A stretch of 64,000 bases of DNA, from the NCBI RefSeq assembly GCF_037023755.1, contig NZ_CP146100.1, positions 5,115,501-5,179,500 on the forward strand, in the 5' to 3' direction. Position numbers and translations under genes: made by a program. This document shows positions 16,242 through 33,457 of the stretch, piece by piece. The stretch is from Saccharopolyspora sp. SCSIO 74807 (GTDB taxonomy: Bacteria > Actinomycetota > Actinomycetes > Mycobacteriales > Pseudonocardiaceae). Every line of letters starts with the position of its first letter. The first letter of the stretch is position 1. Under the pieces are notes generated by a model, which saw only the letters and a list, made by a program, of their open reading frames with translations, was not told the origin of the DNA and did not search any database.

Positions 16242-17120
16242 TTACGAAGAAGCTACGCCGGACTGCTTGCGGAGTTCCGTGGAGCTCTGGGCCAACAGGG
16301 TTTCCAGTTGTGCGCCAGTGATGGCGGCGTCGCGGAGCTGCGCGAAGAAGTCCTCGTAGGCGCGGACGTCGTCGGGCGAATCGAGACGTTGCTGGGCGGT
16401 GAGGGATTCGATGAGGACGTGGTCGTCGTAGAGCAGGAAGTTCGTCAGCGGAAACACGGGCATGGCCGCGGTGAACGGCACGACGCCGATGTCGACCTGC
16501 GGGTAGCCGAGCAGGGCAAGCAGCCGGTCCAGTTGACCGGCGAGGGTCCGGGGGTCTCCGAAATGGGTGTGCAGGGCGGCCTCGCCCATGATGATCCGGA
16601 TCGGTTCTGGCCGGGGCTGGTAGAGGATCTGCTGCCGTTCCATGCGTTTGCCGACGATCTGGTCGATTTCCTCGTCGGCTACCCCGGCGGAAGCTGGGCC
16701 GCAAGGGCGGGTGAGAACTTCACGCGCGTAGGCGGCGGTCTGGAGCAGTCCAGGCATCATGGCGGGCTGGAACTCCGCGATGCGCGCCGAGGCGGCATCT
16801 TCGTTCGTGGTCGCCTGCTGCTCGGCGACAGCACCGCCGTGCTGGCGGTAGCGCTGGCCGAAGGTGGCGTACTCGATGCGGGCGGCACCGGCGAGTTCGA
16901 AGAGCTCGTCCAGTTGCTCGGCGGTGGCGTCGACAGCCTCGCCCCACCGGCGAAGGTCGTCGTCGGTGGGACGCTGGCTACCTTGCTCGAGCTTCGACAC
17001 CCGGGTCTGGTGCCAGTCCAAATGCCGCGCCAACGCACTGCCGGAGGCAAACGCGGTCGCGCGCAGCTCGCGAAGACGTCGAGCGAGCAGTGCTCGCTGC
17101 GGCGTGTTCGGGCCTGGCAC
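16242..17120 (-). CDS. XRE regulator with DUF5753 domain
   Basis: A 292-residue DNA-binding protein. The N-terminal helix-turn-helix (SALARHLDWHQTRVSKLEQG, about residues 28-47) is followed by the DUF5753 effector domain with its usual landmarks ARIAEFQPAMMPGLLQTAAY, RMERQQIL and the acid-rich C-terminal half. It starts with GTG after GAAGGGAAC. Such regulators are common next to small DUF partners in actinomycetes; here it is downstream of the DUF6879 gene and divergent from the lanthipeptide operon, so it is the best candidate for local control. Confidence 0.9.
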   Translation of the reverse strand: MPGPNTPQRALLARRLRELRATAFASGSALARHLDWHQTRVSKLEQGSQRPTDDDLRRWGEAVDATAEQLDELFELAGAARIEYATFGQRYRQHGGAVAEQQATTNEDAASARIAEFQPAMMPGLLQTAAYAREVLTRPCGPASAGVADEEIDQIVGKRMERQQILYQPRPEPIRIIMGEAALHTHFGDPRTLAGQLDRLLALLGYPQVDIGVVPFTAAMPVFPLTNFLLYDDHVLIESLTAQQRLDSPDDVRAYEDFFAQLRDAAITGAQLETLLAQSSTELRKQSGVASS

Positions 17121-17135
17121 GCTCGTTCCCTTCTT

Positions 17136-17675
17136 CTAACGCGAGTCGTACTCGCTCCACGATATTGACTGCGCAATCGCGGCCTCGCGCTGGGCGCACG
17201 CATCGGCGATGCACTGCGGATCGGAGGTCGGCTCGGCGCCGAGCCACGCGCCGTCCGCGGAGTAGCGCATCATCCACAGCCTGCGTGCGTCGATGAGCCA
17301 GTAATCGGCGGCTTGCACGTCGGTCGGCCATCGATCTCCGCGGACGGGAATGATCCGGACGTCCTCGCCCGCTTGAACGTTGGGGGCGTACGAGGCCAGT
17401 TCGAACCGTACGTAGTCGGTCAGCGGTTCGGTCACCACGTGCACGCGCTGGATCCGGCAGCCCTGGCCGACGCGGTGACGGGTGCGTTCGCACCACTGCT
17501 GGAGTTCCGCGGTAATCGGGATGCGGCCGGTGCGTCGCCACTCGGCAAGGGCGTCGTCCTCGCTGCTGCCGGAGTAGTTCTGCAGCGTCTCCAACCGAAA
17601 AAGCGAATAGCGGAAGGCGGCAAGCTCATCGCGGAGCTGGTCGATGCCGTCGCGTAGGTCGTGCGCGGGCGTCAC
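17136..17675 (-). CDS. DUF6879-type protein
   Basis: A 179-residue protein matching the DUF6879 pattern by eye: FRLETLQNYSGSSED, RRVHVVTEPLTDYVRFEL-like (here RIQRVHVVTEPLTDY), RIIPV and the C-terminal DYWLIDARRLWMMRY. It overlaps the preceding small gene by four bases and ends 15 bases before the XRE/DUF5753 gene, so the three form one operon. The family is of unknown biochemical function and typically accompanies XRE/DUF5753 regulators. Confidence 0.8.
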   Translation of the reverse strand: MTPAHDLRDGIDQLRDELAAFRYSLFRLETLQNYSGSSEDDALAEWRRTGRIPITAELQQWCERTRHRVGQGCRIQRVHVVTEPLTDYVRFELASYAPNVQAGEDVRIIPVRGDRWPTDVQAADYWLIDARRLWMMRYSADGAWLGAEPTSDPQCIADACAQREAAIAQSISWSEYDSR

Positions 17676-17890
17676 GGGGTCTTTTCCTGGTAGAGGCGGG
17701 CGGCCTCGACGAGGATCTCGGGCTTGATCAGGACACCCGACTCGCCCGGGAGCAGATTTTCCATGTTGGCGAAGGTCTCCGGGTCCATCTCGAGGCCCTG
17801 GACGGCCATCATGCCGTTCTCAGCGAGGTAGACACTCTGGCAGCCGGTGGGGTTCGACTCCGGGTCCTTGCAGATCTTGTGCAGGTGCAC
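17672..17890 (-). CDS. small regulator-associated protein
   Basis: A 72-residue protein starting with GTG at 17890, selected by GGGAGG five bases upstream; a longer frame to 17977 has no ribosome site. It contains SNPTGCQSVYLAENGMMAVQ, a pattern of small proteins that accompany DUF6879 and XRE genes. The stop overlaps the next ATG in ATGA, indicating translational coupling. Function unknown. Confidence 0.7.
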   Translation of the reverse strand: MHLHKICKDPESNPTGCQSVYLAENGMMAVQGLEMDPETFANMENLLPGESGVLIKPEILVEAARLYQEKTP

Positions 17891-18141
17891 GACGGCCTCC
17901 CGTCTCGTCGGGGCACGAACGCCACGATCTTCGCTTAGAACGACCTTGACTGTCCATAACCTTACTGACAACCTCAACCTAACCGCGCTCTAACCTTGAT
18001 CGTTGTCGGGTCGCGTTCCCGATAGTCCGTCGGCGGCTTTCCCCTCCCTACCCACCAGGGCGCGAGGACGGCTGACGTACAGGGAGCACACGCGCGTGCG
18101 GCGAACGAGGGAAGACCATCGAAAGAGAGGCAGGAAGCCCG

Positions 18142-19452
18142 GTGAGCACATCTTCCGAACAGGTTCCGGACGACTCGCTGGAGCCGGACGTGAGCCCCGC
18201 CGCCGAGGCAACCCAGATTCAGCGGGCGCGGGCGGCGATGGTGCAGCGGTTGTGGGAGCTCGATGCGCTGCGTTCGGAACGTGTCGCGGAGGTCTTCGCC
18301 ACGGTCGACAGGCACGTGTTCGCGCCGGGTGTGCCGGTGGCAGAGGTCTACGACGCTACGACCGCGGTGCGAACGAAGTGGGACGAGCACGGCAGCGCGA
18401 TCAGCTCGATCTCCGCTCCACAGATCCAGGCATTCATGTTGGAACAAGCGGATGTCCGGCCGGGGATGCGCGTGTTGGAGGTCGGCTCGGGCGGCGTCAA
18501 CGCCGCGATGCTGGCCGAACTCGTCGGCGACACCGGCCACGTGACCACAATGGACATTGATCCGGAGATCACTGGCCGGTCCCGAAAGCTGTTGGATGCG
18601 GCGGGATACCCGCAGGTGCACGTGGAGTGCGCGGACGCCGAGCATGGCGTGCCCGCACGAGCACCGTTCGACGTGGTGCTGGTGACGGTCGGCTGCTGGG
18701 ATCTTCCTGCCGCGTTGACGGACCAGCTTGCCGAAAGCGGACGCATCGTCGTTCCGCTGCGGATGCGGGGAATTACGCGATCCCTGTCGTTGCATCGCGC
18801 CGGTGACCACTTGCTGGCGGATTCGGCCGAGGTGTGCGGGTTCGTCAAGGCACAAGGTCTTGGCGCGCACCAGGAAAGGATGCTGCTGCTGCACGGCGAC
18901 CGGATCGCTCTGCGCTTCGACGACGACACCGCACCTGCCGATCCGTCTCGGCTCGACGGCGCGTTGGGTACTGATCGCGCTGACGTGTGGTCCGGCATCA
19001 CCGTGGAAGCGATGGAGCCATTCGACAGCCTGGGGCTGTGGCTGGCCTCCGTGCTGCCGGGCTCGTGCCGACTCGCGGTCGATCCCGACTACGACCGGGC
19101 AATCGACAGCGGTCCGGTGATGGTCGTCCCCGAAGGCCGCTGGTTCCCAGACGCCTACGTGAACTCGCACGAGGACTCGTTCGCCTATCTCGCTACCCGG
19201 CGCCTCGACGACGGGCTCTTCGAGTTCGGCGCCCACGCCTTCGGCCCGCACGCCGGAGAGGCCGCCGAGGCGATGGTGGAGCAGATCCGCGCGTGGGACC
19301 GCGACTATCGCCACGGCCCTGACCCGGTCATCGCCGTCTGGCCGTACGACGCCCCGGACGACGCACTGCTGTCCCCGGACGCCGCTGCGACCACGGTGAT
19401 CGCGAAGCGGCACACCAGCATCACGATCTCCTGGCCGCGCCCTTCGGCATAG
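18142..19452 (+). CDS. FxLD-type lanthipeptide methyltransferase (PCMT-like)
   Basis: A 436-residue SAM-dependent methyltransferase of the protein L-isoaspartyl methyltransferase type found in FxLD lanthipeptide loci. The SAM motif I is VLEVGSG (about 111-117), followed by MDIDPE (acidic ribose ligand) and FDVVLVTVGCWDLP. The C-terminal 200 residues are the extension typical of the lanthipeptide-associated group. The family methylates an Asp side chain of a ring-containing precursor, allowing aspartimide and then isoaspartate formation. It is the first gene of the operon; the precursor gene follows after 51 bases. Confidence 0.9.
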   Translation: MSTSSEQVPDDSLEPDVSPAAEATQIQRARAAMVQRLWELDALRSERVAEVFATVDRHVFAPGVPVAEVYDATTAVRTKWDEHGSAISSISAPQIQAFMLEQADVRPGMRVLEVGSGGVNAAMLAELVGDTGHVTTMDIDPEITGRSRKLLDAAGYPQVHVECADAEHGVPARAPFDVVLVTVGCWDLPAALTDQLAESGRIVVPLRMRGITRSLSLHRAGDHLLADSAEVCGFVKAQGLGAHQERMLLLHGDRIALRFDDDTAPADPSRLDGALGTDRADVWSGITVEAMEPFDSLGLWLASVLPGSCRLAVDPDYDRAIDSGPVMVVPEGRWFPDAYVNSHEDSFAYLATRRLDDGLFEFGAHAFGPHAGEAAEAMVEQIRAWDRDYRHGPDPVIAVWPYDAPDDALLSPDAAATTVIAKRHTSITISWPRPSA

Positions 19453-19503
19453 CAGCCGAGACGGCCAGGTTCGTTTGGAACAGAACAACGAGGAAGGAAA
19501 CGC

Positions 19504-19689
19504 ATGGCGGCCAACACGACCACGCTGTCCCGCACCGAGGACGTCGACATCAGCGACGATTTCACGCTCGACTTCCAGGTGATCGAGTCCGCGTATCCGC
19601 TCGCGAAGTTGAGCTGCGACACCGATGACGGGTGCGGGCAGACCTGCTCCACCAGCGCTTGCAACAGCCAGGCCAACAACCCGTCGTGA
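19504..19689 (+). CDS. FxLD-family lanthipeptide precursor
   Basis: A 61-residue precursor with a strong ribosome site (GAGGAAGGAAA). The leader carries the hallmark FTLDFQVIES (residues 20-29), recognised by LanB. The C-terminal core region contains Cys38, Cys44, Cys48 and Cys53 with Ser/Thr at 37, 40, 47, 49-51, 55 and 61, enough for up to four (methyl)lanthionine rings. Asp39, Asp41 and Asp42 are candidate sites for the co-encoded methyltransferase. The leader cleavage site is not evident and no protease gene is in the cluster. Confidence 0.93.
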   Translation: MAANTTTLSRTEDVDISDDFTLDFQVIESAYPLAKLSCDTDDGCGQTCSTSACNSQANNPS

Positions 19690-19762
19690 ACCCTGCCCTC
19701 GCCGGGACGCTGATCCCTCTGGCGTCCCGGCGGGAACGCTCTGTCCGATCCAGGAGGTGCGC

Positions 19763-22700
19763 GTGGCCACGCCGCGCCGTTTTCGTCACGCCGATTTCGT
19801 ACTGGTTCGAGCGAGCACCGACCCGGGAGGGCTGAGCCTGCCGCGGCTGGATCTGCACACCGCCGAGGATGCCGAGACGACCGGCCGGGAATGGCTCACC
19901 GAGTTATGGGGGCGCGATGTCGTACGCACCGCCTTCGGTGTCGCCAGCCCGGCGCTGTGCGAGCAGATCGCCGCCGCAGTCGACGGCGCGAAACTCAACC
20001 GCCGCTCCTGGCGCAGCCTGCTGGTCTCGACGTGCTCTTACGTCCTGCGCTGGCAACAGCGCCCCACTCCTTTCGGCCTGTTCGCCGGAGTGACCACCGC
20101 GGCGATCGGCGCCTCCACGCGCGTCGTCTTCGGCGAGCAGCATGAGCTGCACCGGCAGATCGACCCGAGCTGGCTCCACGAGTTGATCAGCGAGCTCGAA
20201 TCCGATCCCGAGGTGCTGGCGAAGGCATCGCTCGTGGTCAACAACGCGGGCACTGTCCGCGGCGACCGATTCGTCGTCCCCAACCATTCCTCCGGTACCG
20301 CTGAGGACAAGCCCTCGGCGCAGGTGGCCGCTGGGCTCGATGAGGTGGAACTGGCGCTGCGTCGCACTCGCCCGGTCGATGCCGCACTTGCTGCTGCGCG
20401 CGTCCCGATCCCGGGACGAATGCTGTTCGACCAACTACACCGTGAATTCCCGTCGGTTCCGCGTGAGCAGGTCGCGACGTTGCTCAGCGGACTTGTCGCG
20501 CACCGCGTGCTGGTGACCAGCCTCCGGGCTCCATCGGCGTGCCCGAACCCTGCCGAGCATGTTCTCGCGCAGCTGGACGATCCCCGCCGCGAAAGCGAGG
20601 AGAACGATCATGTCGGCGATGCTCGCGAGGATCTGCGCTCCTTCTTTAGCTCGGGATCGCAGGCGAAGACCACCGTGTCCGAAGCCGCGAGTCCGGCTCG
20701 CCCGTCACCTCCGTCCAGTGTGGACGTCTCGCTCGACGGACGGGTCACGCTGCCGGAGCCCGTGCTGCGCGAAGCCGAGTCGGCGGCCTCCGTCCTGCTC
20801 GAGGTGACTCCGAGCCCGTTCGGCACCGCCCCGTGGCGCGACTACCACCTGCGGTTCCGAGAACGGTACGGCTCCGGTGCGCTGGTACCGGTACGCGAGT
20901 TGGTATCCGACTCCGGGCTCGGTTTCCCAACCGGATTCCTCGGCGCGGCCCGCGAACAAGGGGCTCGTTTGCTGACCGATCGCGACGCCGCCCTGCAAGC
21001 GATGCTGCAGGAGACCGTCCTCGATGGACGGACCGAAGTCGCCTTGTCCGAGGAATTGATCGAGCAACTCTCCGTCGGAGACCACCGCGATCTGACGCCG
21101 CCCGAGCGGGTCGAGCTGGCCTTCACGATCCACACAACCTCGACCGAGGCCCTGGACCAGGGACGGTTCCGGCTGTGGGTCACCGGGGCTCCGGTGCCGA
21201 CCTCCAGCATGGCCGGGCGCTTCGCCGCCGTGCTCGACGAGCACGCGCGGCAACAGCTGTCCCGCACCTACCCCACAGGGGACGAGGTGATGGTCGCCCA
21301 ACTTTCCTTTCCCCCGCGACGCATCGCCAATGAAGCCGTCACCCGCACTCCGGACCTGTTGCCATGGCTGTTGCCCATCGGCGAACACCCGCCAGAGCTC
21401 GGCGCCGACTCAGCTCGGTTACTCCATCTCGACGACCTCGCGGTGACTGCCAGCTCCGCCCAGTTCTTCCTCATCCACCGCCCCAGCGGAAAACCGGTGC
21501 ACCCTTACGTGCCACACGCCTTGGAAACCACCATCTACACGCCACCACTGGCGCGCTTCCTCGCCGAACTGCCCATCGCGCGGCGGGCGGTGTTCGGCCC
21601 CATCGACTTCGGTGCGAGCCGGACCCTGCGATTCCTGCCCCGAATCCGACACGGCCGCAGCGTGCTGTCCCCGGCGCGGTGGCTGCTGCACGCCACCGAC
21701 CTCCCCGGCCCACGCGCCGCGAGCACTGAATGGGAGCAAGCGTTGAAAAGGTGGCGCGAGCGCTGGCGGGTTCCCGCCCACCTGCTCCTCGTCGAAGGAG
21801 AACAACGCCTGCCACTCGACCTCGACGAACCGACCCAGCGCAGCCTGCTGCGCGTACGGTTGCACCGAGCAGGCAAGGCGGAGCTTCGCGAAGCAGGTGA
21901 TCCTGCACGACGCGGCTGGACGGGACGCGCGTGCGAATTCCTGGTGCCGCTCACCGCTAGCCCGAGCCCGTCCGCGCCGCCGGTCAGCCGGAAAGTCGTC
22001 GTCCGCGATGACAGCGTCGGCTCGCCCGCCCGAAACGACGGCGCCTTCCCGGGCACTTCATCGCTCGTCTTGTCCAAATTGGAGGGACCCCCGCAGCGGT
22101 TCGACACCATCCTGACCGAGCATCTCCCGAACCTGCGCCAGCACCTCGGCGACGAGATCCAACGCCTGTGGTTCCGCCGCCACCACGACACCACCCGGCC
22201 TGACTCGGACCACTCGCTACAGCTATGGCTGAGGCTGACCAGCGCCGACCGCTACGGGTCCGCTACGACATGCCTGGCCGGATGGGCCGAAGACCTGCGC
22301 GCGTCCGGGTTGCTGGCCCAAGTCAGCTTCGAGACCGCCTGGGCACAACCCGGCAAGTACGGCGATCTGTCCGCCGCCGAGCGGGTGTTCGCAGCCGATT
22401 CCGCAGCCGCACTTGCCGAGATCTCCTATGCCGAACAGCTCCAGCTGCCTCGGCCTGCGGTGGCTGCGGTGTCGATGGTTGATCTCGCCACAGCCCTCGC
22501 GTCGGACGCGGAGAAGGGCTGGGAGATGGTGATCGCCAGCCTCCCGCAGCAGACCGGTCCGCTCGACACTGCGCTGCGCGAGCGCGCCCTCGGCCTTGCA
22601 CGTCACCTACAACAGGACCAACCGCACGTCCGCAACGATGCAGTGCAGGCAGCATGGGCCGCGCGCCGCGAAGCGCTCGAAACGTACCGAGCGCAGCTCG

Positions 22701-22852
22701 ACCGGCCGCCGGAATCAGTACTCCGAGCGCTGTTGCACGAACATTTCCGGAGGACCATCGCGGTTTCCCGCGAACAGGAGGAGACCACCAACCGGCTCGC
22801 CCGCGCCGTCGCGTTGCAGGCGCTCGCGCTGACCCAACGAGGTGTCGGATGA
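19763..22852 (+). CDS. class I lanthipeptide dehydratase LanB
   Basis: A 1029-residue full-length LanB that should dehydrate Ser/Thr in the core using glutamyl-tRNA. The N-terminal glutamylation domain shows RPTPFGLFAGVTTA at about 95; the C-terminal elimination (SpaB-C-like) domain spans roughly 770-1010 (SLQLWLRLTSADRYG, VFAADSAAALAEI). The GTG start at 19763 has CAGGAGGTG four bases upstream; the frame opens earlier, across the precursor gene, but that part is not LanB-like. It overlaps the LanC start in ATGA. Confidence 0.93.
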   Translation: MATPRRFRHADFVLVRASTDPGGLSLPRLDLHTAEDAETTGREWLTELWGRDVVRTAFGVASPALCEQIAAAVDGAKLNRRSWRSLLVSTCSYVLRWQQRPTPFGLFAGVTTAAIGASTRVVFGEQHELHRQIDPSWLHELISELESDPEVLAKASLVVNNAGTVRGDRFVVPNHSSGTAEDKPSAQVAAGLDEVELALRRTRPVDAALAAARVPIPGRMLFDQLHREFPSVPREQVATLLSGLVAHRVLVTSLRAPSACPNPAEHVLAQLDDPRRESEENDHVGDAREDLRSFFSSGSQAKTTVSEAASPARPSPPSSVDVSLDGRVTLPEPVLREAESAASVLLEVTPSPFGTAPWRDYHLRFRERYGSGALVPVRELVSDSGLGFPTGFLGAAREQGARLLTDRDAALQAMLQETVLDGRTEVALSEELIEQLSVGDHRDLTPPERVELAFTIHTTSTEALDQGRFRLWVTGAPVPTSSMAGRFAAVLDEHARQQLSRTYPTGDEVMVAQLSFPPRRIANEAVTRTPDLLPWLLPIGEHPPELGADSARLLHLDDLAVTASSAQFFLIHRPSGKPVHPYVPHALETTIYTPPLARFLAELPIARRAVFGPIDFGASRTLRFLPRIRHGRSVLSPARWLLHATDLPGPRAASTEWEQALKRWRERWRVPAHLLLVEGEQRLPLDLDEPTQRSLLRVRLHRAGKAELREAGDPARRGWTGRACEFLVPLTASPSPSAPPVSRKVVVRDDSVGSPARNDGAFPGTSSLVLSKLEGPPQRFDTILTEHLPNLRQHLGDEIQRLWFRRHHDTTRPDSDHSLQLWLRLTSADRYGSATTCLAGWAEDLRASGLLAQVSFETAWAQPGKYGDLSAAERVFAADSAAALAEISYAEQLQLPRPAVAAVSMVDLATALASDAEKGWEMVIASLPQQTGPLDTALRERALGLARHLQQDQPHVRNDAVQAAWAARREALETYRAQLDRPPESVLRALLHEHFRRTIAVSREQEETTNRLARAVALQALALTQRGVG

Positions 22853-24078
22853 ACCGGCAGCATTTCGCCGCGCCCGGCAACGCGAAGCACGCCGAACTCC
22901 TCAGCGTCATGGCGACGCCCCTGACCGAACCCGCCACCGGGCAGGCCGAGCTGGCCCAATCGTTGTCTCGCGGAGCCGCTGGCATCGCCCTCTGGCATCT
23001 CGAACGCTCCCACCACGATGTGCCCGAAGCACGGCCTCTGCTGCACCAGTGGGTGCGCGCCGCCCTAGCTTCGCCGATCAGTTCCGCCGAAACCGCGGGC
23101 CTGCACGCAGGTCTGCCCGCGATCACGTTCCTGCTGCATCTCGCCGAGCCCGTACTGCCCGAATACCGTCCCGCCATCACCGAGTTCGACCAGCACCTGA
23201 GACGGCTCGCCCACCGCCGGGTCGACGTCGCGCTGGAACGCATCCGGCACGGCCGTCCGGCTGGTTTCGCCGAGTACGACCTGATGCGCGGGCTGACCGG
23301 GATCGGGCACCTGCTGCTGCACCACCAGCCAGGCACCGACGCCCTGGCCCGCGTCCTGGACTACCTCGTCCGACTGACCAAACCGCTCACCGTCGACGGA
23401 GAGACACTGCCGGGATGGTGGGTCGACCACGCACCCGACCAGCTGCTGCCGACACCGGGCGGGCACAGCAACCTCGGCATTGCCCACGGCATCACCGGCC
23501 CGCTCGCCGTGCTCGCCCACGCGGCCCGCCGCGCGATCACCGTCGATGGCCACTACGACGCCATAGACCGGATCTGCGCACACCTCGACCACTGGCAGCA
23601 GGACAACGCCGGACCCTGGTGGCCGTATTGGATCGACCACCACGACTACGCCCGCGGGTGCCTCACCAGCCACCAGCCGGGACGGCCATCGTGGTGCTAC
23701 GGCACCCCAGGGATCGCCCGAGCACAACAACTCGCAGGACTCGCCACCGGCGATACCACTCGGCAACACGCCGCGGAGACAGCGCTGCTGGCCTGCCTGA
23801 ACGACGACAGCCAAACCGACCTGATCAGCGACATGGGGCTATGTCACGGATGGGCCGGGCTGTACCTCACGGCAGCGCGAACCGCCCACGATGGAGCCAC
23901 CCCGGGCCTCGCCGCACTTCTGCCTTCACTCGCACAGCAACTCGTCCAACACGCCGAAGCCACTCCGCCTCCCGAACTCGGCTTGCTCGACAGCGCGACC
24001 GGCGTCGCCCTCGCCCTTCACGCCGTCACGACGGGCGTCCCGATATCCGGATGGGACCAATGCCTCTTAATCAGCTGA
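22849..24078 (+). CDS. lanthipeptide cyclase LanC
   Basis: A 409-residue zinc enzyme that closes thioether rings by adding Cys thiols to dehydroamino acids. The zinc ligands are present: Cys283 in SWCYGTPG and Cys332-His333 in GLCHGWAG; the conserved His of GIAHG (about 213) is also there. Seven GxxG-type helical barrel repeats are suggested along the chain. Start overlaps the LanB stop by four bases; its own stop overlaps the next gene by 19 bases, so LanB, LanC and the downstream protein are translated as a unit. Confidence 0.94.
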   Translation: MNRQHFAAPGNAKHAELLSVMATPLTEPATGQAELAQSLSRGAAGIALWHLERSHHDVPEARPLLHQWVRAALASPISSAETAGLHAGLPAITFLLHLAEPVLPEYRPAITEFDQHLRRLAHRRVDVALERIRHGRPAGFAEYDLMRGLTGIGHLLLHHQPGTDALARVLDYLVRLTKPLTVDGETLPGWWVDHAPDQLLPTPGGHSNLGIAHGITGPLAVLAHAARRAITVDGHYDAIDRICAHLDHWQQDNAGPWWPYWIDHHDYARGCLTSHQPGRPSWCYGTPGIARAQQLAGLATGDTTRQHAAETALLACLNDDSQTDLISDMGLCHGWAGLYLTAARTAHDGATPGLAALLPSLAQQLVQHAEATPPPELGLLDSATGVALALHAVTTGVPISGWDQCLLIS

Positions 24079-25067
24079 ACACCTCGGCAGCGCCCGCCGA
24101 ACTCATCGCGACGGCCGTCCGCAGCGTGATGGCAGGCGAAACCCTCCCCGAAGCCGCCGCAGCCCACGACCTCGACGTCGGCGAGCTCGCTGACGCACTC
24201 GACACGTACGACCGGGCTGGGCGCGCCGCCGTGTATGACCGCACGGCAGACACGACCTGGTGGCAAGCACATCTCGAATTCAGCGCATGGGAGCAAGCCG
24301 AACTCATCGCAGCCTCAGCCCTCGCACCACTCCTGAACGCTTGGTGCCGGACCGGACTCCTCCGGCAATGGTGGTTCATCCGAAAAGCACCGAGCTGGCG
24401 CCTTCGCCTGCAACCCGACACCGACCACGATGCTCTACGCACCCGCGCCGCCGCCGAGCTCGACCGACTCGTCCAGCAAGGTCACCTCGCCAGCTGGCGC
24501 CCGAGCCACTACGAACCCGAAGCTCTCGCATTCGGAGGCCCCAGCGGAATCCGCATCGCACACACCCTGTTCAGCGCCGACAGCGCCAACCTCCTCGCTC
24601 ACCTTCACACCCGCCACGTGCCGCTCGGCCGCGTCGAGCTCTCGATGCTGTTGTGCACCCAGCTCTTCCGCGCCGCGGGACAAGAGCAGTTCGAGGCCGG
24701 CGACATCTGGCACCGCGTCACCTACCTGCGTCCGCACCCGCAACACCCCAGTACCGACACCGGACACCACACCGACTTGACCCGGCAGCTACGCACACTG
24801 CTGACCTACGACGCTCGCCCCACCGGGCCGCTCTTCGCTCCCGAAGGCTCGCTCCACGCAGCCCACGACTGGGCACACGCCTTCCACGAAGCTGGACGTG
24901 ACCTCGCCCGCGCAGCACGAGAATCCAAGGTGCACAGGGGAATCCGCCACATCCTCGCCCACCACGTGATCTTCCACTGGAACCGGCTCGGCCTCGACAC
25001 CAACACCCAGCACGCACTCGCCCACGCCGCGACCTGCGCACTGCTCCCGCTCGAAACCACACCCTGA
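24060..25067 (+). CDS. stand-alone SpaB-C-like (thiopeptide-type) lanthipeptide biosynthesis protein
   Basis: A 335-residue protein related to the elimination domain of LanB. A helical N-terminal 60 residues precede WWQAHLEFSAWEQAE, WFIRKAPSWRLRLQPD (typical hRxxxxWRLR strand) and the C-terminal HVIFHWNRLGL block found in thiopeptide-type bacteriocin enzymes. It could supply glutamate elimination, another addition to the peptide, or an adaptor role, since LanB in this cluster already has such a domain. The start lies inside the end of lanC in another frame. Confidence 0.85.
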   Translation: MPLNQLNTSAAPAELIATAVRSVMAGETLPEAAAAHDLDVGELADALDTYDRAGRAAVYDRTADTTWWQAHLEFSAWEQAELIAASALAPLLNAWCRTGLLRQWWFIRKAPSWRLRLQPDTDHDALRTRAAAELDRLVQQGHLASWRPSHYEPEALAFGGPSGIRIAHTLFSADSANLLAHLHTRHVPLGRVELSMLLCTQLFRAAGQEQFEAGDIWHRVTYLRPHPQHPSTDTGHHTDLTRQLRTLLTYDARPTGPLFAPEGSLHAAHDWAHAFHEAGRDLARAARESKVHRGIRHILAHHVIFHWNRLGLDTNTQHALAHAATCALLPLETTP

Positions 25068-25917: not shown

Positions 25918-26448
25918 CTATGCGTCTTGCAGCGCTTCGCGAACCTTCTGGTGAAAGCCCTCTAGGAGGCTTGGGAGTTCGTTCGCGATTACTTCGACGC
26001 CACCGGACTCGACCTCGTAGGTGGATCCGACGAGGGCGCCGCCTTGGAGGAGGTAGATTTTGCCATCTGAACGACTCAGGGCGAACAGCCCTCCACCGCC
26101 GTCGGACCCGATGACGATGACCGAGTCCTCGACAGCGCCCGTAACGCGGGTGGGTTGACCGTCTTTCGCGCCGTCGACAACCGCTGTGGCCGATTCGATA
26201 AACAGGCCGTTCTGCACGTCGGGAAGTGATACCTCGTGAACTTCCGAGTAGAACTCAAGCAGGTCCGAAGAAGCACCCATCGACGAAAGTTCGGCGATGG
26301 CTTCGCTCTCGCCGCCAGCTTCCGCCCTGGTCACCACGTTGTCGTCGGGAGGGTATCCGAAAATGCCCTCGAATCCGCGCATGAGTTCGTCGAGGTCTTG
26401 CGACATCGACTGAACCCAGTCATTTAGGCTCTGCCCAGAAATATTCAC
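25918..26448 (-). CDS. SUKH (SMI1/KNR4)-like immunity protein candidate
   Basis: A 176-residue protein with the general build of SUKH immunity proteins: N-terminal helices with SSDLLEFYSEVHEVSLPD, then a beta region DSVIVIGSDGGGGLFALSRS and DGKIYLLQGGALVG, and a C-terminal helix. The GTG start at 26448 overlaps the last codons of the Rhs toxin; an ATG at 26406 would shorten it by 14 residues. Position directly after the toxin tip is the classic place for the cognate immunity gene. Confidence 0.7.
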   Translation of the reverse strand: MNISGQSLNDWVQSMSQDLDELMRGFEGIFGYPPDDNVVTRAEAGGESEAIAELSSMGASSDLLEFYSEVHEVSLPDVQNGLFIESATAVVDGAKDGQPTRVTGAVEDSVIVIGSDGGGGLFALSRSDGKIYLLQGGALVGSTYEVESGGVEVIANELPSLLEGFHQKVREALQDA

Positions 26449-29400
26449 CGTAGCCCCTATCGATCTGGCTCGTTACGTCTTCGATCTCAGCTCGCGTAGG
26501 GTTCGGGTTGAGATCGTGGAACCACTTCCACTGATTCGTGATTTCCTGGTGGACGTTGGCCCCGCGAGATCCCATCCTACTACCGGGGATCCCGCGCATG
26601 TTGGACGGCGCGTCGAAGTCGAAGTCGTGGAATTCCGGGTGGTTCCGGTACTCCTGCGGCACCGCGTGGTGGGCGTCCCAGTCCTTCGGGAGTCGCTGGA
26701 AGCCATTCTTGTTCAGCCAAGCGTTGAATCTGCCACGGTAGTTGTCCTTACTGATGGAGGGGAATTCGGGGTCGCGTCCTGCCGCCTGGCCGCCCTGGTA
26801 GGGCGAGAGCCCTACCGGGTCCGATAACCGGAAGGGGTTGTCGACGTACGAAGTCGGATTCGGCGCCGGTCCCAGTCCAAGCGGGTCCGCGGATGCGTAC
26901 TGTCCTGTTTCGGGCGAGTAATGCCGGTGGTAGTTGTAGTAGAGTTCACTTTCCTCATCGTGGTACTGGCCGGGAAAGCGCAGCGGCGTAGCGGCGTCGT
27001 GTTCCCGTCGACCGGGCACGGTTCCCCACATTGTCATGCGGCTATGCCAAGCGACCGCGCCGTCATCATCGACCAGCTCCGCGGGAGAACCCACGAGATC
27101 AGTGACGATCAGGTGGAAGCGCTCGTCGATGGTTTCTTGGGACGCCTCGCGGAGAGATCCCCGTTCTCGTTGGGTGACCGGACGGAACGTTCCTGGTTCG
27201 TAGTCCCAGACCATCACCGACGCATTGGCAGATTCCGGGTTTTCCGCGCTTTCATGAGTCTGGGATTGCTCCGCGAGCTGTGCGCCGTCCCAGGCGAACG
27301 TGACCTGCTCGATGATCGAGCCGTCCAGGGCGAGACGTTGCTTGGCGGTGCGTCGCCCCAAGGCGTCGTATCGATAGCGCCAGTGGGATCCCTCCGGTGT
27401 GGCCACACGCGTAAGCCGGTCATCGGCGTCCCAGGTGTATCGCCATGTGGCGGGCTTCTGCGACAGGCGCTTCTGCTGCCGCAACACCAACCGGCCTTGC
27501 GCGTCGTGTTCGTAGCGGACCTTGCCGGCTCGCCTGATCAGGCTGCCGCTGTATTCGCGCTCGCCCAACGCCTCGGACTCGCTCTCCGGCGCAGGCCACG
27601 ATGCACTGGTGATGTTGCCCGCCGTGTCGTAGGCGTAGCGTTCACTCCACCCGGAACCGTGCACAGCGGTGACGCGTCCGACGTGGTCAAGGTCGAAGCG
27701 ACGAGGCCCCGCGATCTGGTCCTCGATGCCGACCAAGTAGCCGTCGGGACGATAGGCGTAGGCACGATGCTGGGTCTGCCTTTCGGCCGTTCCGATCACG
27801 GCCTGTGCCGTGAGCTGATGGTTGGCGTCCCATTCTTGGGTCAGCGCCACATTCGCTCCGAGGGATCTGCGGATTTCTCGCCCGGCTGCATCGTGGCTGA
27901 ACCGCACCGTGCGTCCCGCGGTGTGCAGCGCGAGCGGGTTGCTTCCCTCGTCGTAGTCCCACACGCTTTCCGCGCCGGAGGGAGTGAGTCGTCGAGTGCG
28001 CCGTCCCAGTGCGTCGTAGGTCGAGCTGACAGTGCGGCCGTTGACGGATTCAGTGAGCACGCGGCCCAGCGAGTCACGTTCAAAGCGCACCTGTGCGTCG
28101 TCGTTGGTTGCTTCCAGCAGCCTTCCGAGGGCGTCATAGCGGAACGACGCCACAGAACCTCCACTGCGGCGTTCGAGGACCTGGCCCAACGGATCACGGA
28201 GGAACGAGGTCGTCTCGCCCGCTCCGTTGGTGCGTGCAACGAGTTCACCTGCGGCGTCGTGCTGGTAAGTGAGGGTTCGTCCGTCGAAGTCGTGCTCGGC
28301 GGTGAGGTTGCCCGCAGCGTCGTATTCGTAGCTCCACACCAAGCCGCGCTGGTTCGTGACGCTGACGAGTCGGAGTTCGGTGTCGTAGCCGAATTCCAGT
28401 CGCGTGCCGTCGGGACGGACTTCGGCCGAGGGCAGTTCGAAGTGCGTGGCTTCGGAACGGGTGGTCTGACCGAGCGGGTCGATGTGAGTGCGGAGGTTGC
28501 CCTCGCCGTCGTAGAGCCACCGTTCGGTGGCACCACTGGGTAGGATCCGCCATGCGGGTTTGCCGTCGACGGTATAGCCGAGCCGGGTCACGCCGCCAAC
28601 CGGATCGATGTTGGCGACGACGCGGCCGAAGCCGTCCCGCTCGTACCGGGTCGTCCCGCCGGTCGGCCCGGTAATCGCCGTCGGAAGTCCCGCCGCGTTC
28701 GTTTCGACCGTACTGGCATGCCCCAACGTGTCGGTGACAGCAGTGAGATGGCCGCGCTCGTTGTAGCCGTAGGCGGTTACCGCGCCCATCGGGTCGATGA
28801 CCCGGGTGAGGTTGCCCGCGTCGTCGTACTCATGACGCTTGAGCGTGCCGTCGGGCGCGATCATGGTAACCGGCTGCCGTAGCTCGTTGTACTCCACGGA
28901 AATCCGGTTGCCGTCCGGCCTAAGCACGGTCGTGACGTTCCCGTTGTCGTCATACCAGTACCGCGTGGTGCGCCCGAGGGGGTCGGTGCGCGAGGAAAGC
29001 CGCCGGTGCTCGTCCCATTCGGACAATGTCTCGCTGCCCAACGGGCCGACCTCGCGGATGATTTTGCCGTCATCGTTGAGGTGGTATTCAGTCTGATTGC
29101 CGAGGGAATCGGTGAGGTAGGTGATCGAGTTGTCGCTGTCGTACGCCAGCGTGCAGCTGAGGAACCCGTCTGCGCCTTCCCCGCGGATGCAGCGGCCTTC
29201 GCCGTCGTAGGTGAAGCGGTACGAGCTGCCGACGCGGTCTTGCCAACCGGTGATGCGACCGGCGTCGTCGTAGTCGAACCGCATCGGTTGTCCGGAGGCG
29301 TTGATGACCTCGGTGAGCCGGTCTCCCCGGTACCGGTAGCGCATCAGCGGCACGTCCGCGCCGTTGTCAGCGCCGCACAGGTACAGCGCCGTCACGAGGC

Positions 29401-30913
29401 GGTCGGTGGTCTCGATCCGGATCCGGTAGCCACCGCTGTGGCGGACCTCGGTGGGCAGACCGGTGTCGTCGTGGACGAAGTCGATGCGGTGGCCGTTGCG
29501 GTCGGTGATCGCCGTGAGCGGCCAGTGCGTGTCGTGCTGCGTGAAGTGCAGGAACCGTCCCTGCTCCACGTCGGTGAGCACATACTCGCCGTCCTCGGTA
29601 CGGGTCAGCGGCCATTGCGGCCCGACGCGTGGAAGGACCGTGACCCCGGGCATCGGGTCCGGGTAGGCCAGCGCGAGGGCGTCGTCCGAGGCGAAATACG
29701 CGCCATCGCCGTCGACTTCCAAGCGCTGGTCCAATGTGGATGCCCAACTCGACCCGAACGCCTGCCCGATCCGATACGACGACAGATGAGTCCGGCGTAG
29801 CACCAACGGAAGAACGCCGTCGAGCTCGACATCGGTCTGCGTCTGCAGCATGCGCCCGCTGTTGACGTCGATCGGGTCTCCGCCCGTGGTCAGGGATTTC
29901 GTCTCGTCGGTGTGGCTGGCGAGGTCGCCGCCGTGCTTGGTGCCTCGGGCGTTCTTGGCAACCTTGGACAGGCCCCCGACCACTTTGCTGCCGAGTTTGG
30001 CGACCTTGCCGAACGGGATGACCGTTAATGCCGTGTCCACGAGGATCGAGGTGAGGCTGCCTTCGCCGGTGGCGGCGTAGATACCGGCGTCAATGGCCAG
30101 CGCCGCACCACCGGTGATGCCCGCGGCGATCAGGAACGCTCCGCCGACGGCGTTGCCGACCACCGGGATCGCCTGCAGCACTAGGCCGACGACCGCGAGC
30201 GCACCCGACACCACCTTGAGCGCTTCCGAAATGCTCTTGAGCACGTCCTTGTTCTCGCGGATGAAGTCCCGGCCCTGCCCGATGAGGTCATAGCTGGCTG
30301 GAGGCTCCTGGAACCGCATCTCCTTGGCCTCGTTGATGCGGTTCGTGCACTCCCGCGCGGCTGCGGTCATCTCCGTGCGCAGACCATTGGCCTTGTCCAC
30401 ACAGTCCTGCCAGGCCACGCGCGCTGACGACAACGCCGCCGAGGCGTCCCCGGTATCCGATTCGTACGGGGTTCCAGGCGGTGGCGGAGCATGCCCGGCC
30501 GGGGCATGAGCGGCGCGATCTTGCTCAGACCGAGCATGAGCGCGGTCGGCCGACTGAGCGCGCTCCACACGTCCCTCACTGGCCTTGAGCTGCTCCCACA
30601 GGCCGGGCGCCTGATGCGCCAGCGGTCGCATCTTGCCCTGCAGCTCCGACAATCGCGACGAGAAGGTGTCCAACGCCGTCCCGACCTGGCTGAACGCCGT
30701 CCCGGTCACCCGCAGGTTCGGCGGCAGCTCCGAATCGACCTTCTCCCGGAACTGCTCAGCCTCCGGCCCCTGAAACTGGCCGGTATCCATGCCGGTGATC
30801 CGCTCGGCTGCGTGCGACGCGGACCCGCCGAAGCGGTCATACCGGCGCGCCGAACCCGCGATCGCTTCCGGTGATCCACCCAGCGAGAACAAGTGCTCCG
30901 GAAAATCCGCCAT
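26420..30913 (-). CDS. Rhs/YD-repeat polymorphic toxin with AHH-like nuclease tip
   Basis: A 1497-residue polymorphic toxin. Residues 1-220 are helical and WXG/EsxA-like; a hydrophobic region lies near 250-300 (AVVGLVLQAIPVVGNAVGGA). DUF6531-like GDPIDVNSGRMLQTQTDVEL near 360 starts the shell, followed by some thirty YD repeats such as RFDYDDAGRITGW and the core end SELYYNYHRHYSPETGQYAS with DPLG and DPVGL. The final 130 residues are the variable toxin: WDAHHAVPQEYRNHPEFHDF and IPGSRMGSRGANVHQEI resemble AHH/HNH-type nucleases (AHH, later HQE). Start ATG 30913 has GGGGG upstream; longer frames add nothing recognisable. Likely exported by a type VII-like route. Confidence 0.9.
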   Translation of the reverse strand: MADFPEHLFSLGGSPEAIAGSARRYDRFGGSASHAAERITGMDTGQFQGPEAEQFREKVDSELPPNLRVTGTAFSQVGTALDTFSSRLSELQGKMRPLAHQAPGLWEQLKASEGRVERAQSADRAHARSEQDRAAHAPAGHAPPPPGTPYESDTGDASAALSSARVAWQDCVDKANGLRTEMTAAARECTNRINEAKEMRFQEPPASYDLIGQGRDFIRENKDVLKSISEALKVVSGALAVVGLVLQAIPVVGNAVGGAFLIAAGITGGAALAIDAGIYAATGEGSLTSILVDTALTVIPFGKVAKLGSKVVGGLSKVAKNARGTKHGGDLASHTDETKSLTTGGDPIDVNSGRMLQTQTDVELDGVLPLVLRRTHLSSYRIGQAFGSSWASTLDQRLEVDGDGAYFASDDALALAYPDPMPGVTVLPRVGPQWPLTRTEDGEYVLTDVEQGRFLHFTQHDTHWPLTAITDRNGHRIDFVHDDTGLPTEVRHSGGYRIRIETTDRLVTALYLCGADNGADVPLMRYRYRGDRLTEVINASGQPMRFDYDDAGRITGWQDRVGSSYRFTYDGEGRCIRGEGADGFLSCTLAYDSDNSITYLTDSLGNQTEYHLNDDGKIIREVGPLGSETLSEWDEHRRLSSRTDPLGRTTRYWYDDNGNVTTVLRPDGNRISVEYNELRQPVTMIAPDGTLKRHEYDDAGNLTRVIDPMGAVTAYGYNERGHLTAVTDTLGHASTVETNAAGLPTAITGPTGGTTRYERDGFGRVVANIDPVGGVTRLGYTVDGKPAWRILPSGATERWLYDGEGNLRTHIDPLGQTTRSEATHFELPSAEVRPDGTRLEFGYDTELRLVSVTNQRGLVWSYEYDAAGNLTAEHDFDGRTLTYQHDAAGELVARTNGAGETTSFLRDPLGQVLERRSGGSVASFRYDALGRLLEATNDDAQVRFERDSLGRVLTESVNGRTVSSTYDALGRRTRRLTPSGAESVWDYDEGSNPLALHTAGRTVRFSHDAAGREIRRSLGANVALTQEWDANHQLTAQAVIGTAERQTQHRAYAYRPDGYLVGIEDQIAGPRRFDLDHVGRVTAVHGSGWSERYAYDTAGNITSASWPAPESESEALGEREYSGSLIRRAGKVRYEHDAQGRLVLRQQKRLSQKPATWRYTWDADDRLTRVATPEGSHWRYRYDALGRRTAKQRLALDGSIIEQVTFAWDGAQLAEQSQTHESAENPESANASVMVWDYEPGTFRPVTQRERGSLREASQETIDERFHLIVTDLVGSPAELVDDDGAVAWHSRMTMWGTVPGRREHDAATPLRFPGQYHDEESELYYNYHRHYSPETGQYASADPLGLGPAPNPTSYVDNPFRLSDPVGLSPYQGGQAAGRDPEFPSISKDNYRGRFNAWLNKNGFQRLPKDWDAHHAVPQEYRNHPEFHDFDFDAPSNMRGIPGSRMGSRGANVHQEITNQWKWFHDLNPNPTRAEIEDVTSQIDRGYGEYFWAEPK

Positions 30914-31152
30914 CGCGACCCCCAAATCACCAGGGCTCATGTCCGCGGTGGTGTGCGCCGACACCTCTGCACGGGCGACACCGCGACGAGCACTCAAGCG
31001 CGACCACTATCCATGATCACGACAGACCGCTGGCAGTTTACGACACCGGCTTGTCCCGTAGTGGCCGAACGAAGAATCCCGTCCTCCAGAAGCACACAGC
31101 CGAGCCGTCGCGGGCATCTATCGGCAGAGGGCATCCAGGCTGTTCTGGCCTG

Positions 31153-33372
31153 TCAGTCGGCGAGATCAAGCGAGTCCAGCTGGTCTTGGATGCGGTCGGC
31201 TTCGGGGTCGCCGATGTTGTCGGCGATCTGGAGTGCGCGGCGCCATGCCTGTGCGGCGTCGTCGGGGTGGTGTTGGGCTTTGCGGGTTTGGCCGAGGATG
31301 TCGAGGGCGTCGACTTCGCTGAACTGGGCGGTGTGTTCGTGGGCGTAGTCGGCGGCGTGCTGGGCGAGCTCGGCCGCGTCGGCGAGTTCGTGTTGGTGCA
31401 GGCGGGTTTCGGCGAGGCGGGTGTAGGCGTAGCAGTGCAGCAGCGGGTCGCCGCCGACGGGGAGTTGTTCGACCGCGCGGGTCAAGTCGGCGGCGGCCGT
31501 GTCGAGGTCGCGGGCGGCGAGGTTCAGGGTTCCTCGAAGGGAACGTGCGCTCGCGGACGCGGAGGTGCCGCCGATGCTGTCGAGGGCGTCGATCGCCTCG
31601 GTCAGCGTTGCGGTGACGGTGTCGGGCGAGTCTCCGCGGAGTAGTTGGGCTCGTCCGAGTCCTTGGGCGGCCCAGCCGATATCGCGCAGGTCGCCGCGCC
31701 GGCGGCGGAGTTGCAGGGCTTGCTCGAGATGCTCCACGGCGTCGTCAAGGTGGTGTCGTTCGGTGTCGATGTAGCCGAGGATGTTGAGCATCCAGGCGTG
31801 ACCTTCGACCGAGTCGGATCGCTCGGTGACCTCCAAGACCTGCTGCGTCAGTCGATACGCCTGGTCATAGCTTTTCACGAGGATGATGTAGCTGAAGGCG
31901 CTGGCGACGAGTTGCCAGGCGAGCCGGTTCCATCCTTTGTCGATGGCGGTGCGGACGGCAGCGGGGAGGTATTCCCAGCGGGATTCCGACCAGGCAAGGG
32001 CGGCTTCGTAGGAGTCGAAATGCGGTGGGCGGACCCCGGCCGGTGGCGGTTCCAGCGGAGGACCGGCGGCGCGGTCGGGGGCGAGCATGACGCCGGCGTT
32101 GGCCCAGCCGTGCAGCATGTAGCCGAGGGTGCGTTCGGCGGCGTTGTCGCGGACCGCGCGCGAGTCGACACGGTGTGATTCTTCGAGCGCGAAAGCCCGG
32201 TGCAGCTCGTGGTATTTCCATTCGCGGCCGTGCTTGGTCAAAAGCGACACATCGGCGACGGCGTTGAGTAGCTCGCGGACTTGCGGGGTGTCGAGACCGG
32301 TGATCGCTGCCGCCGACTCCGGGGTCACGTCCGGCAGGTAGGCGCACAGCCGCCAGGCCCGGGCCTGTTCGTCGGTGAGGTGCTCGTAGGAGGCGCGGGC
32401 GGCGCCGCGCACGGCATCGGGAGGGACGGTGTCGGCGGACATTTCGGCGATCATCTCCTCGTCGGCATCATGCGCGGCGATGTAGTCCCCGAGTGCTCGC
32501 AATGCCAGCGGCAGCCCCGCGCCGCGGGCGGCGAGACCGGCTACCCGGTGGTGCGGTTGGTGGGCGCGGGCGGCGATCAGGGCGGTGGCGTCGTCGATGT
32601 TCAGTGGTGGCACCGATACCCACCGGACCCGTCCGGGCACGTCGGGCACTCGATCACGACTGGTTATCAGCACCACGCTACCGGGCGAGGCCGGGATCAG
32701 GGCAGAGATCTGATCGGATCGAGCGTTGTCCACACCGATGATGTAGCGCTTGTCCAGCAGGCTGCTGCGCCACAGTCCGACGAGTTCGTCGAGGTCGGAC
32801 GGGAGTTCGGTCACCGGGGTCTGGGTGGTCAACGCGCACCATGAGCGCAGCACCGTGGCCGGGATGCGAGGCCCGGTGTTGGTGTCCCACCCGCGCATGT
32901 CGGCCCACAACACCCCGTCGAAACGCTGCCGTAGCTGCGCAGCGGCCGTGGCCGCGACCGCGGTTTTGCCGATGCCTCCCGGGCCGGTCAGCACCAGCGT
33001 CATCGGCGACGACGTACCGGGGCTTGTCGGTGAGGTGGCCTCCCGGGTGATCGTTTCCAGCAAGGCGACGCGATCGACGAGTTCTTCGACCGGGGGAACC
33101 TGGGCCACTACGGCGGCAGCGCGCCCGTGGGCGTTGCCTGCGGGGTCGTCGCCGTTGACCGGCAACCGCGACACGGCGTCGACGAAGTGACCGCTGGTTT
33201 CCAGCTCGCGATCAAGAATCTCGGCCAACTCGCGCCGCAATCGGCGGTGTCCTGCCTCGAGCCGGGAGAGCTGGCCGTGGCTGATGCTGATCTGTTTGGC
33301 GAGTTCCCGCACCGACAGATCGCGCTTGCGTCGCCACTCCTTCACCAGCGCGCCCACACGGTGATCGTCCAC
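31153..33372 (-). CDS. XRE / NB-ARC / TPR regulator
   Basis: A 739-residue STAND-type regulator. An N-terminal XRE helix-turn-helix (LSVRELAKQISISHGQLSRL, about 19-38) precedes an NB-ARC ATPase with Walker A GPGGIGKT near 130, an Asp-containing Walker B (YIIGVDNA) and GLPLALRALG (GLPL motif). The last 300 residues are TPR repeats. The GTG at 33372 is preferred because GGAGGTGCGC places the ribosome site six bases away. It is divergent from the Tad pilus operon across a 237-base region with a long inverted repeat, and may act as its switch. Confidence 0.92.
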   Translation of the reverse strand: MDDHRVGALVKEWRRKRDLSVRELAKQISISHGQLSRLEAGHRRLRRELAEILDRELETSGHFVDAVSRLPVNGDDPAGNAHGRAAAVVAQVPPVEELVDRVALLETITREATSPTSPGTSSPMTLVLTGPGGIGKTAVAATAAAQLRQRFDGVLWADMRGWDTNTGPRIPATVLRSWCALTTQTPVTELPSDLDELVGLWRSSLLDKRYIIGVDNARSDQISALIPASPGSVVLITSRDRVPDVPGRVRWVSVPPLNIDDATALIAARAHQPHHRVAGLAARGAGLPLALRALGDYIAAHDADEEMIAEMSADTVPPDAVRGAARASYEHLTDEQARAWRLCAYLPDVTPESAAAITGLDTPQVRELLNAVADVSLLTKHGREWKYHELHRAFALEESHRVDSRAVRDNAAERTLGYMLHGWANAGVMLAPDRAAGPPLEPPPAGVRPPHFDSYEAALAWSESRWEYLPAAVRTAIDKGWNRLAWQLVASAFSYIILVKSYDQAYRLTQQVLEVTERSDSVEGHAWMLNILGYIDTERHHLDDAVEHLEQALQLRRRRGDLRDIGWAAQGLGRAQLLRGDSPDTVTATLTEAIDALDSIGGTSASASARSLRGTLNLAARDLDTAAADLTRAVEQLPVGGDPLLHCYAYTRLAETRLHQHELADAAELAQHAADYAHEHTAQFSEVDALDILGQTRKAQHHPDDAAQAWRRALQIADNIGDPEADRIQDQLDSLDLAD

Positions 33373-33457
33373 GCGCACCTCCGGAAACAGCCTCGCTCCC
33401 GCCTCGGTGATAACACGCCAGGGACGAACGAACCCAGATGCTCACTCGTCCGAGTGA

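Follow-up and report, generated by a model that had tools for sequence, protein, structure and literature searches.

Precursors of the FxLD/PCMT type are the most abundant class I lanthipeptide precursors in Actinobacteria, and class I clusters in which a PCMT and an additional elimination-domain protein accompany a full-length LanB are already known, the PCMT being the protein with the highest co-occurrence (Walker et al. 2020, PMC7268733; here and below, published statements follow passages of the papers cited). The cluster described here is of this known and common type. It occupies positions 16242-25067 of a 64,000-nucleotide stretch of Saccharopolyspora sp. SCSIO 74807 (contig NZ_CP146100.1, positions 5,115,501-5,179,500; hereafter the window, to which the cluster coordinates are relative). 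The cluster encodes a PCMT-like aspartate O-methyltransferase (LanSA), a precursor (LanA), a LanB, the cyclase LanC and a stand-alone SpaB-C-like protein. Of 297 sampled genomes of the host family, 118 contain a match to the methyltran_FxLD profile above its cut-off, and the nearest named locus is that of Saccharopolyspora sp. HNM0986 (L005; LanSA 92%).

Three described systems and one family definition bear on this locus. The coi cluster of Streptomyces coelicolor A3(2) (CoiA1/B/C/SA) has the same class I gene set, with LanSA, a full-length LanB, LanC and an extra syn-glutamyl lyase. In coi that lyase is fused to LanSA and the lyase domain of CoiB is canonical, whereas in the window the predicted lyase stands alone and the lyase domain of LanB lacks its Arg pair; the window core also carries an extra Cys38, two residues ahead of Thr40. 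In the olv cluster of Streptomyces olivaceus NRRL B-3009 (OlvA/B/C/SA) the N-terminal part of the core likewise contains an additional Cys, but a second lyase is absent, and OlvB is reported to be canonical. In the SapT system (spt; SptBa/SptBb) the syn-lyase is likewise a separate protein, giving (E)-dehydrobutyrine (Dhb) and D-allo-L-methyllanthionine (MeLan). However, the LanB of spt is truly split, while that of the window keeps an altered lyase domain and is accompanied by LanSA. From the FxLD system of NCBIfam (TIGR04363/TIGR04364) the window does not differ, its precursor and methyltransferase both being members.

Stand-alone or fused elimination proteins of this kind are syn-glutamyl lyases: SptBb has been shown to give (E)-Dhb, and D-allo-L-MeLan is tied to the elimination domain of CoiSA, CoiSA(ED) (Sarksian et al. 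2022; PMC9011353, PMC9486935, PMC9890492 for the former, PMC9011353 and PMC9486935 for the latter). The SapT pathway is, according to its authors, where (E)-Dhb was first encountered in a ribosomal peptide (PMC9890492), and the activity of lanthipeptides is reported to be affected by the stereochemistry of their thioether rings (PMC9486935). We consider it reasonably probable that in the window cluster LanB glutamylates the precursor and that the stand-alone syn-lyase carries out most or all of the eliminations.

Two unlike elimination domains

An earlier note on this DNA offered no explanation for the second SpaB-C-like protein and did not mention the atypical elimination domain of LanB, which is the least expected feature of the locus. 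Compared with NisB, the window LanB carries Gln for R784, Trp for R786, Gln for E823, Lys for R826 and His for Tyr776, and keeps the equivalents of H961 and R966. For the HIRLR motif we take the NisB numbering to be offset by three residues in 6m7y, and the letters of the motif after residue 781 are presumably as assumed here. Among Arg784, Arg786, Glu823, Arg826 and His961, the residues of a canonical anti-glutamyl lyase, only His961 is thus retained, and because the other four are replaced LanB is not classed as a canonical anti-lyase. Full-length LanBs have all been predicted to be anti-lyases (PMC9486935), a prediction from which the window protein, judged by these residues, appears to depart. 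An AlphaFold2 model of LanB computed from a 4-sequence input reached a mean predicted local distance difference test score of 41 and was not used, and no PDB relative of P0004 was found by sequence at E 0.1.

The same substitutions recur in a large group of LanBs. A search of 88 loci yielded 77 two-domain LanBs (from 76 loci, with one further protein from a different cluster of the window genome), of which 71 remained after removal of six near-identical proteins; 12 loci had no ORF (open reading frame) for a two-domain LanB (L006, L009, L010, L011, L049, L060, L064, L067, L074, L076, L079 and L081), and G294:C28, with a score equal to that of an included locus, was left out of the sample. The 71 proteins split cleanly into class a (n=38; L002own is included here for residue counts and left out of the co-occurrence counts below) and class b (n=33, including the window). 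In class a, R784, R786, E823 and R826 are kept in 38/38 and H961 in all 37 readable proteins, and position 776 is Tyr (27) or Phe (11). In class b, R786 and E823 are lost from all 33 proteins and R784 from 32, while R826 is replaced in eight, three times by Lys as in the window, and gapped in one. A tree of the N-domain only places class b in a single clade (Shimodaira-Hasegawa-like approximate likelihood ratio test, SH-aLRT, 99; quick search, no bootstrap).

Class b was also recovered irrespective of gene neighbourhood. A profile built from 18 class-b LanBs, all found beside LanSA, retrieved 37 LanBs with at least 1066 bits from the 297 genomes; 35 of the 36 examined (window included) are class b, and one is class a (G201, L109). 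In a phylum sample of 396 genomes, two of eight further LanB loci inspected are class b and come from another family (L140, complete; L141, truncated); among loci L083-L090 of the phylum search, L089 aligned too poorly for classing. It seems unlikely that the cluster is an ordinary one of coi or olv type, in which the LanB differences are neutral drift of a clade without consequence for the product. The gene set is indeed that of described clusters, but the changes hit the NisB residues responsible for binding the substrate glutamate and are common to a clade of 33 LanBs, and drift across the whole lyase domain is mild. For the window protein, the balance leans slightly towards a LanB whose own domain no longer performs canonical anti-elimination.

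The stand-alone protein (24060-25067) presents the opposite picture. Syn-lyases are recognised by a Lys that replaces Tyr, by a pair of conserved Arg residues (K46, R51 and R53 in CoiSA(ED)) and by a hydrophobic residue where NisB has Arg826 (PMC9011353, PMC9486935). The stretches FIRK-APSW-RLR and YEPEALAFGG of the window protein fit this signature at each position: Lys, Arg at +5 and Arg at +7 match K46, R51 and R53, and Ala occupies the Arg826 position. By this signature the protein is very probably a syn-lyase. A role of such proteins in thiopeptide-like cycloaddition or another tailoring step, with no lyase activity, was raised by Walker et al. 2020 (PMC7268733), but is highly improbable here, as the Lys/Arg/Arg signature is that of CoiSA(ED) and SptBb, both with demonstrated lyase activity. 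The stand-alone lyase is not a new kind, since PMC9486935 lists stand-alone syn-lyases beside full-length LanBs; the gene would be a further case of an arrangement already listed. No description of LanBs with a changed or missing lyase domain in LanSA clusters was found in passages of the open-access literature, and an earlier notice may exist elsewhere.

Lyase partners and precursor cores

A separate syn-lyase accompanies 32 of the 33 class-b LanBs (in two pieces in L095), and the 33rd locus (L106) stops at a contig edge; these counts are phylogenetically non-independent, class b being one clade. Both class-b loci of the phylum sample, L140 and L141, also have one. Among 37 class-a loci a syn-lyase is present in 27, 17 not of coi type and 10 of coi type, the latter with the lyase fused to LanSA in nine cases and adjoining it in L122. 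The 10 class-a loci in which none was found are eight olv-type loci, L109 and L111. Overall, 70 non-redundant loci encode a two-domain LanB, and in 49 of them (32 of class b and 17 of class a) it is accompanied by LanC and by a syn-lyase that is not part of a coi-type unit.

In some clusters the LanB lyase domain is missing entirely. The window genome contains a second LanSA cluster at about 3.59 Mb (L132, 4912-10438), in which a LanB of 680 amino acids (aa) that ends before the lyase domain is followed by LanC and a syn-lyase/LanSA fusion; its core is MCSTGDGCGSSCPSACTTS. Relatives were taken from the 297 genomes as the five P0009 matches with at least 63% identity and frames of 676-767 aa, and weaker short-frame matches (e.g. 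G157:C1, G248:C463, G001:C4:207232) were left out. The resulting class c comprises six clusters (L132 and L134-L138), each with a LanB without lyase domain and with a sole lyase, of the syn type, fused to LanSA. The six LanBs form one clade beside coi (SH-aLRT 98), apart from class b, and only a lyase of the syn kind was found in the 18-19 kb around each cluster. Sole syn-elimination therefore appears to exist in nature. The window genome has five PF14028 domains overall, and a lyase from another cluster may act in L132.

Two further loci of this genome were observed. At about 6.478 Mb (L139, 8706-10273) an orphan syn-lyase of 335 aa lies beside a partial LanC, with no LanB match in 19.5 kb, and resembles a remnant. 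At about 2.89 Mb (L133, 8226-13160) a third class I cluster combines a canonical LanB, LanC and a precursor with CTPGC, a part of the lipid II-binding motif SxxxCTP(G/S)C (PMC7268733).

Precursors were sought in 46 non-duplicate loci by asking only for an FxLD-like motif and Cys, the precursor then being picked by eye. An FxLD precursor was identifiable in 36 loci, and all 36 contain T-x-D-[GNE]-C; for the remaining 10, none or only unrelated ORFs were listed. The window core reads T40-D41-D42-G43-C44. The earlier note had placed a backbone change at one of Asp39, Asp41 and Asp42; a modified Asp is still predicted, and the choice can be narrowed. Because T-x-D-[GNE]-C is conserved while the residues at the Asp39 and Asp41 positions vary among the 36 precursors, Asp42 is the candidate site, and the residue modified by LanSA is probably Asp42, which would lie inside the predicted ring Thr40-Cys44. 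OlvSA converts a conserved Asp to aspartimide and isoaspartate (PMC13001092), and the motif is given as TxDGC (Lee et al., PMC10787088).

The cores also differ in the residues ahead of this motif. A Cys precedes the Thr of TxDxC at -2 in 32/32 class-b and 6/6 class-c cores, and in 7/7 olv-type cores at -2 (four) or -4 (three). By contrast, it is absent from all 27 first-listed cores of dual-lyase clusters (class a with syn-lyase 0/17, coi type 0/10). These counts require a TxDxC match and so do not test the motif itself, as the 36 of 36 given above do, and one class-b and one olv locus had no core found. Outside this sample, the dual-lyase loci L142-L144 fit the pattern, and L140, the only further class-b locus with a core, has no Cys at -2. 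Of the two class-a loci that lack both a syn-lyase and the olv type, L109 has no upstream Cys, contrary to the single-lyase idea, and L111 has a Cys elsewhere in -6 to -1. The dual-lyase cluster L043 lists a second precursor with Cys at -2. We therefore did not adopt as a rule that a Cys just before TxDxC marks single-lyase clusters; it is a tendency, with L140, L109 and the second precursor of L043 as exceptions.

Proposed division of the elimination step

From the observed gene content, family membership, residue states and co-occurrence we infer the following chemistry, ring pattern and division of labour. LanB would move Glu from Glu-tRNA onto Ser and Thr of the FxLD precursor. The stand-alone syn-glutamyl lyase would then remove the glutamate, mainly or exclusively, an assignment made because the LanB lyase domain lacks the glutamate-binding Arg pair and Glu823. 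LanC would add the cysteines; by analogy with CoiA1 the rings are probably Thr40-Cys44, Thr47-Cys53 and Cys48-Ser55, a pattern that leaves Cys38 without a partner. Next, LanSA would methylate Asp42 within the first ring, and the ester would pass through aspartimide to mostly isoaspartate. If syn-elimination is general, each Thr-derived ring would form via (E)-Dhb and become D-allo-L-MeLan. CoiSA(ED) eliminates at all three Thr of CoiA1 when the CoiB lyase is inactivated (PMC9486935), and therefore an arrangement with a syn-lyase alone can dehydrate.

For class b as a whole, we put forward, tentatively and at a little short of even chances, that the built-in anti-lyase has been disabled or changed and elimination passed to the separate syn-lyase. 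Classes b and c would then make isoaspartate lanthipeptides in which all Thr-derived rings are D-allo-L-MeLan; alternatively, the altered domain would be a third kind of glutamyl lyase using the His at the switch position.

Several observations weigh against a transfer of elimination to the syn-lyase. The class-b domain resembles an active site under selection: H961 is kept in 31 of 32 readable proteins and R966 in 32/32, and His occupies position 776 in 31/33. R826 persists in 24/33. The domain is not simply decaying either, the ratio of lyase-domain to N-domain identity being 0.95 in class b (18 LanBs) compared with 1.02 in class a (16 LanBs). Moreover, the class-b members form one clade of 33 and are not independent, and several of their targets are Ser, to which E/Z geometry does not apply. 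A LanC signature common to classes b and c amounts to one column, compared with 0-1 in nine other group pairs, which is chance level. Published experiments point the same way. CoiC failed to cyclise CoiA1 dehydrated by CoiSA(ED) and lyase-dead CoiB, and it was a His substitution (H994A) that had inactivated the CoiB lyase (both PMC9486935). Losing the Arg pair does not necessarily abolish lyase activity, as CoiSA(ED) R51A and R53A remain active (PMC9486935), and NisB R784A still dehydrates sevenfold.

These features could instead mean that the class-b domain has stayed active as an anti-glutamyl lyase and recognises glutamate in a rewired manner, the His that replaces Tyr776 and an inserted R/K-P-x-x-D loop standing in for the lost Arg pair. 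The cluster would then work like coi, LanB giving (Z)-Dhb at some Thr and the syn-lyase (E)-Dhb at another. This alternative, including the rewiring it supposes, is a serious one that we regard as plausible and the less probable. It accounts for the retained H961 and R966 equivalents, for R806-H807, invariant in 18 class-b LanBs with His at that position in 31/33, and for the conservation expressed in the identity ratio; in coi, moreover, both lyases are needed (PMC9486935). However, R786 and E823 are gone from 33/33 and R784 from 32/33, R826 is replaced or gapped in 9/33, and H961 is lost in L075. In addition, most class-b cores, with their Cys at -2, resemble those of the syn-only class c and not dual-lyase cores, L140 being the exception. 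The description of the class-b domain as a vestigial lyase domain was not adopted, the domain being only mildly faster evolving and His961 being kept.

Gene content, surroundings and meaning

Gene identities were taken from Pfam and NCBIfam profile scans, with scores in bits and curated cut-offs where available (Table 1). As the earlier note had it, the locus is complete and lies at the coordinates given there: its eight genes were confirmed one by one, with scores far above chance. All frames are open, and an operon of XRE/DUF5753, DUF6879 and small-protein genes (-) faces the five-gene biosynthetic operon (+). The coupled starts that the note had described hold for two junctions, LanB/LanC (4 bases) and LanC/SpaB-C-like gene (19 bases), and are stated for these only. 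The true start of the small protein probably lies downstream of the listed TTG.

Table 1. Genes of the FxLD cluster (window coordinates) with their profile matches
Feature	Position	Strand	Profile matches
XRE/DUF5753 regulator (putative)	16242..17120	-	PF19054 129 bits; PF13560
DUF6879 protein	17136..17675	-	PF21806 162 bits
Small protein, 101-codon ORF	17672..17977	-	None (Pfam, NCBIfam; E 0.01)
LanSA, PCMT-like Asp O-methyltransferase of FxLD system, 436 aa	18142..19452	+	TIGR04364 500 bits; PF01135 124 bits
LanA precursor, 61 aa, leader FTLD, core ...SCDTDDGCGQTCSTSACNSQANNPS	19504..19689	+	TIGR04363 53.5 bits
LanB, 1029 aa	19763..22852	+	PF04738 640 bits; PF14028 68 bits
LanC cyclase, 409 aa	22849..24078	+	PF05147 129 bits
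Stand-alone syn-glutamyl lyase (predicted; SpaB-C-like), 335 aa	24060..25067	+	TIGR03891 184.5 bits; PF14028 97 bits

The precursor passes the family cut-off of TIGR04363 (30 bits) and has the FTLD motif and four Cys, at 38, 44, 48 and 53, and the three Asp, as the note had claimed. LanSA passes that of TIGR04364 (320 bits) over residues 28-431. LanB keeps the glutamylation residues equivalent to NisB Y80, R83, R87 and T89, and the motif columns of LanC retain the zinc ligands and the catalytic His, as in class I synthetases. On these profile matches and residues there is little doubt that the cluster is of the class I (FxLD) lanthipeptide type and that LanSA acts as its Asp-methylating enzyme; the family models and the published OlvSA and CoiSA clusters agree with the note on this. 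Its novelty as the note framed it is low, because such precursors are reported to rank first in abundance among those of class I in Actinobacteria (PMC7268733).

In the Pfam and NCBIfam scans no match to a transporter, protease or immunity family was obtained for any of the eight genes, which bears out the absence of a transporter, leader protease and immunity gene that had been noted, and a Pfam scan of 10 selected flanking ORFs, most from a set of 62, showed no transporter or protease. These ten comprise two P450s, a transposase, NUDIX/HAD, Rhs, NB-ARC, GGDEF and creatininase proteins and two without a match. At 26420-33378 the window encodes a large Rhs-repeat protein (1525 aa ORF) with a putative T7SS signal domain, adjoining an HTH/NB-ARC/TPR protein.

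The XRE/DUF5753 gene is only loosely tied to the cluster, since together with DUF6879 it shares a locus with LanSA in 7 of the 46 non-duplicate loci. Besides the window the pair was seen in L005, L006, L007, L067, L074 and L076; three of the seven loci have no LanB match and one has a LanB fragment only. In L006 (9001-11448, Saccharopolyspora spinosa NRRL 18395) LanSA and a near-identical precursor core accompany a 252-aa LanB fragment, with no LanC or lyase match, and this locus is probably a decayed relative of the window cluster. L009, L060, L064, L067, L074 and L081 have an FxLD-type methyltransferase and no LanB or LanC match in roughly 19-20 kb; they are possibly pamtide- or imiditide-like or remnant loci.

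The class-b LanBs qualify the published view that every full-length LanB can be predicted to be an anti-lyase (PMC9486935). If the proposed division of labour is true, all-allo lanthipeptides would have a natural source in a LanB clade that seems to have abandoned anti-elimination, and this clade would be an example of the lyase step being reassigned during evolution.

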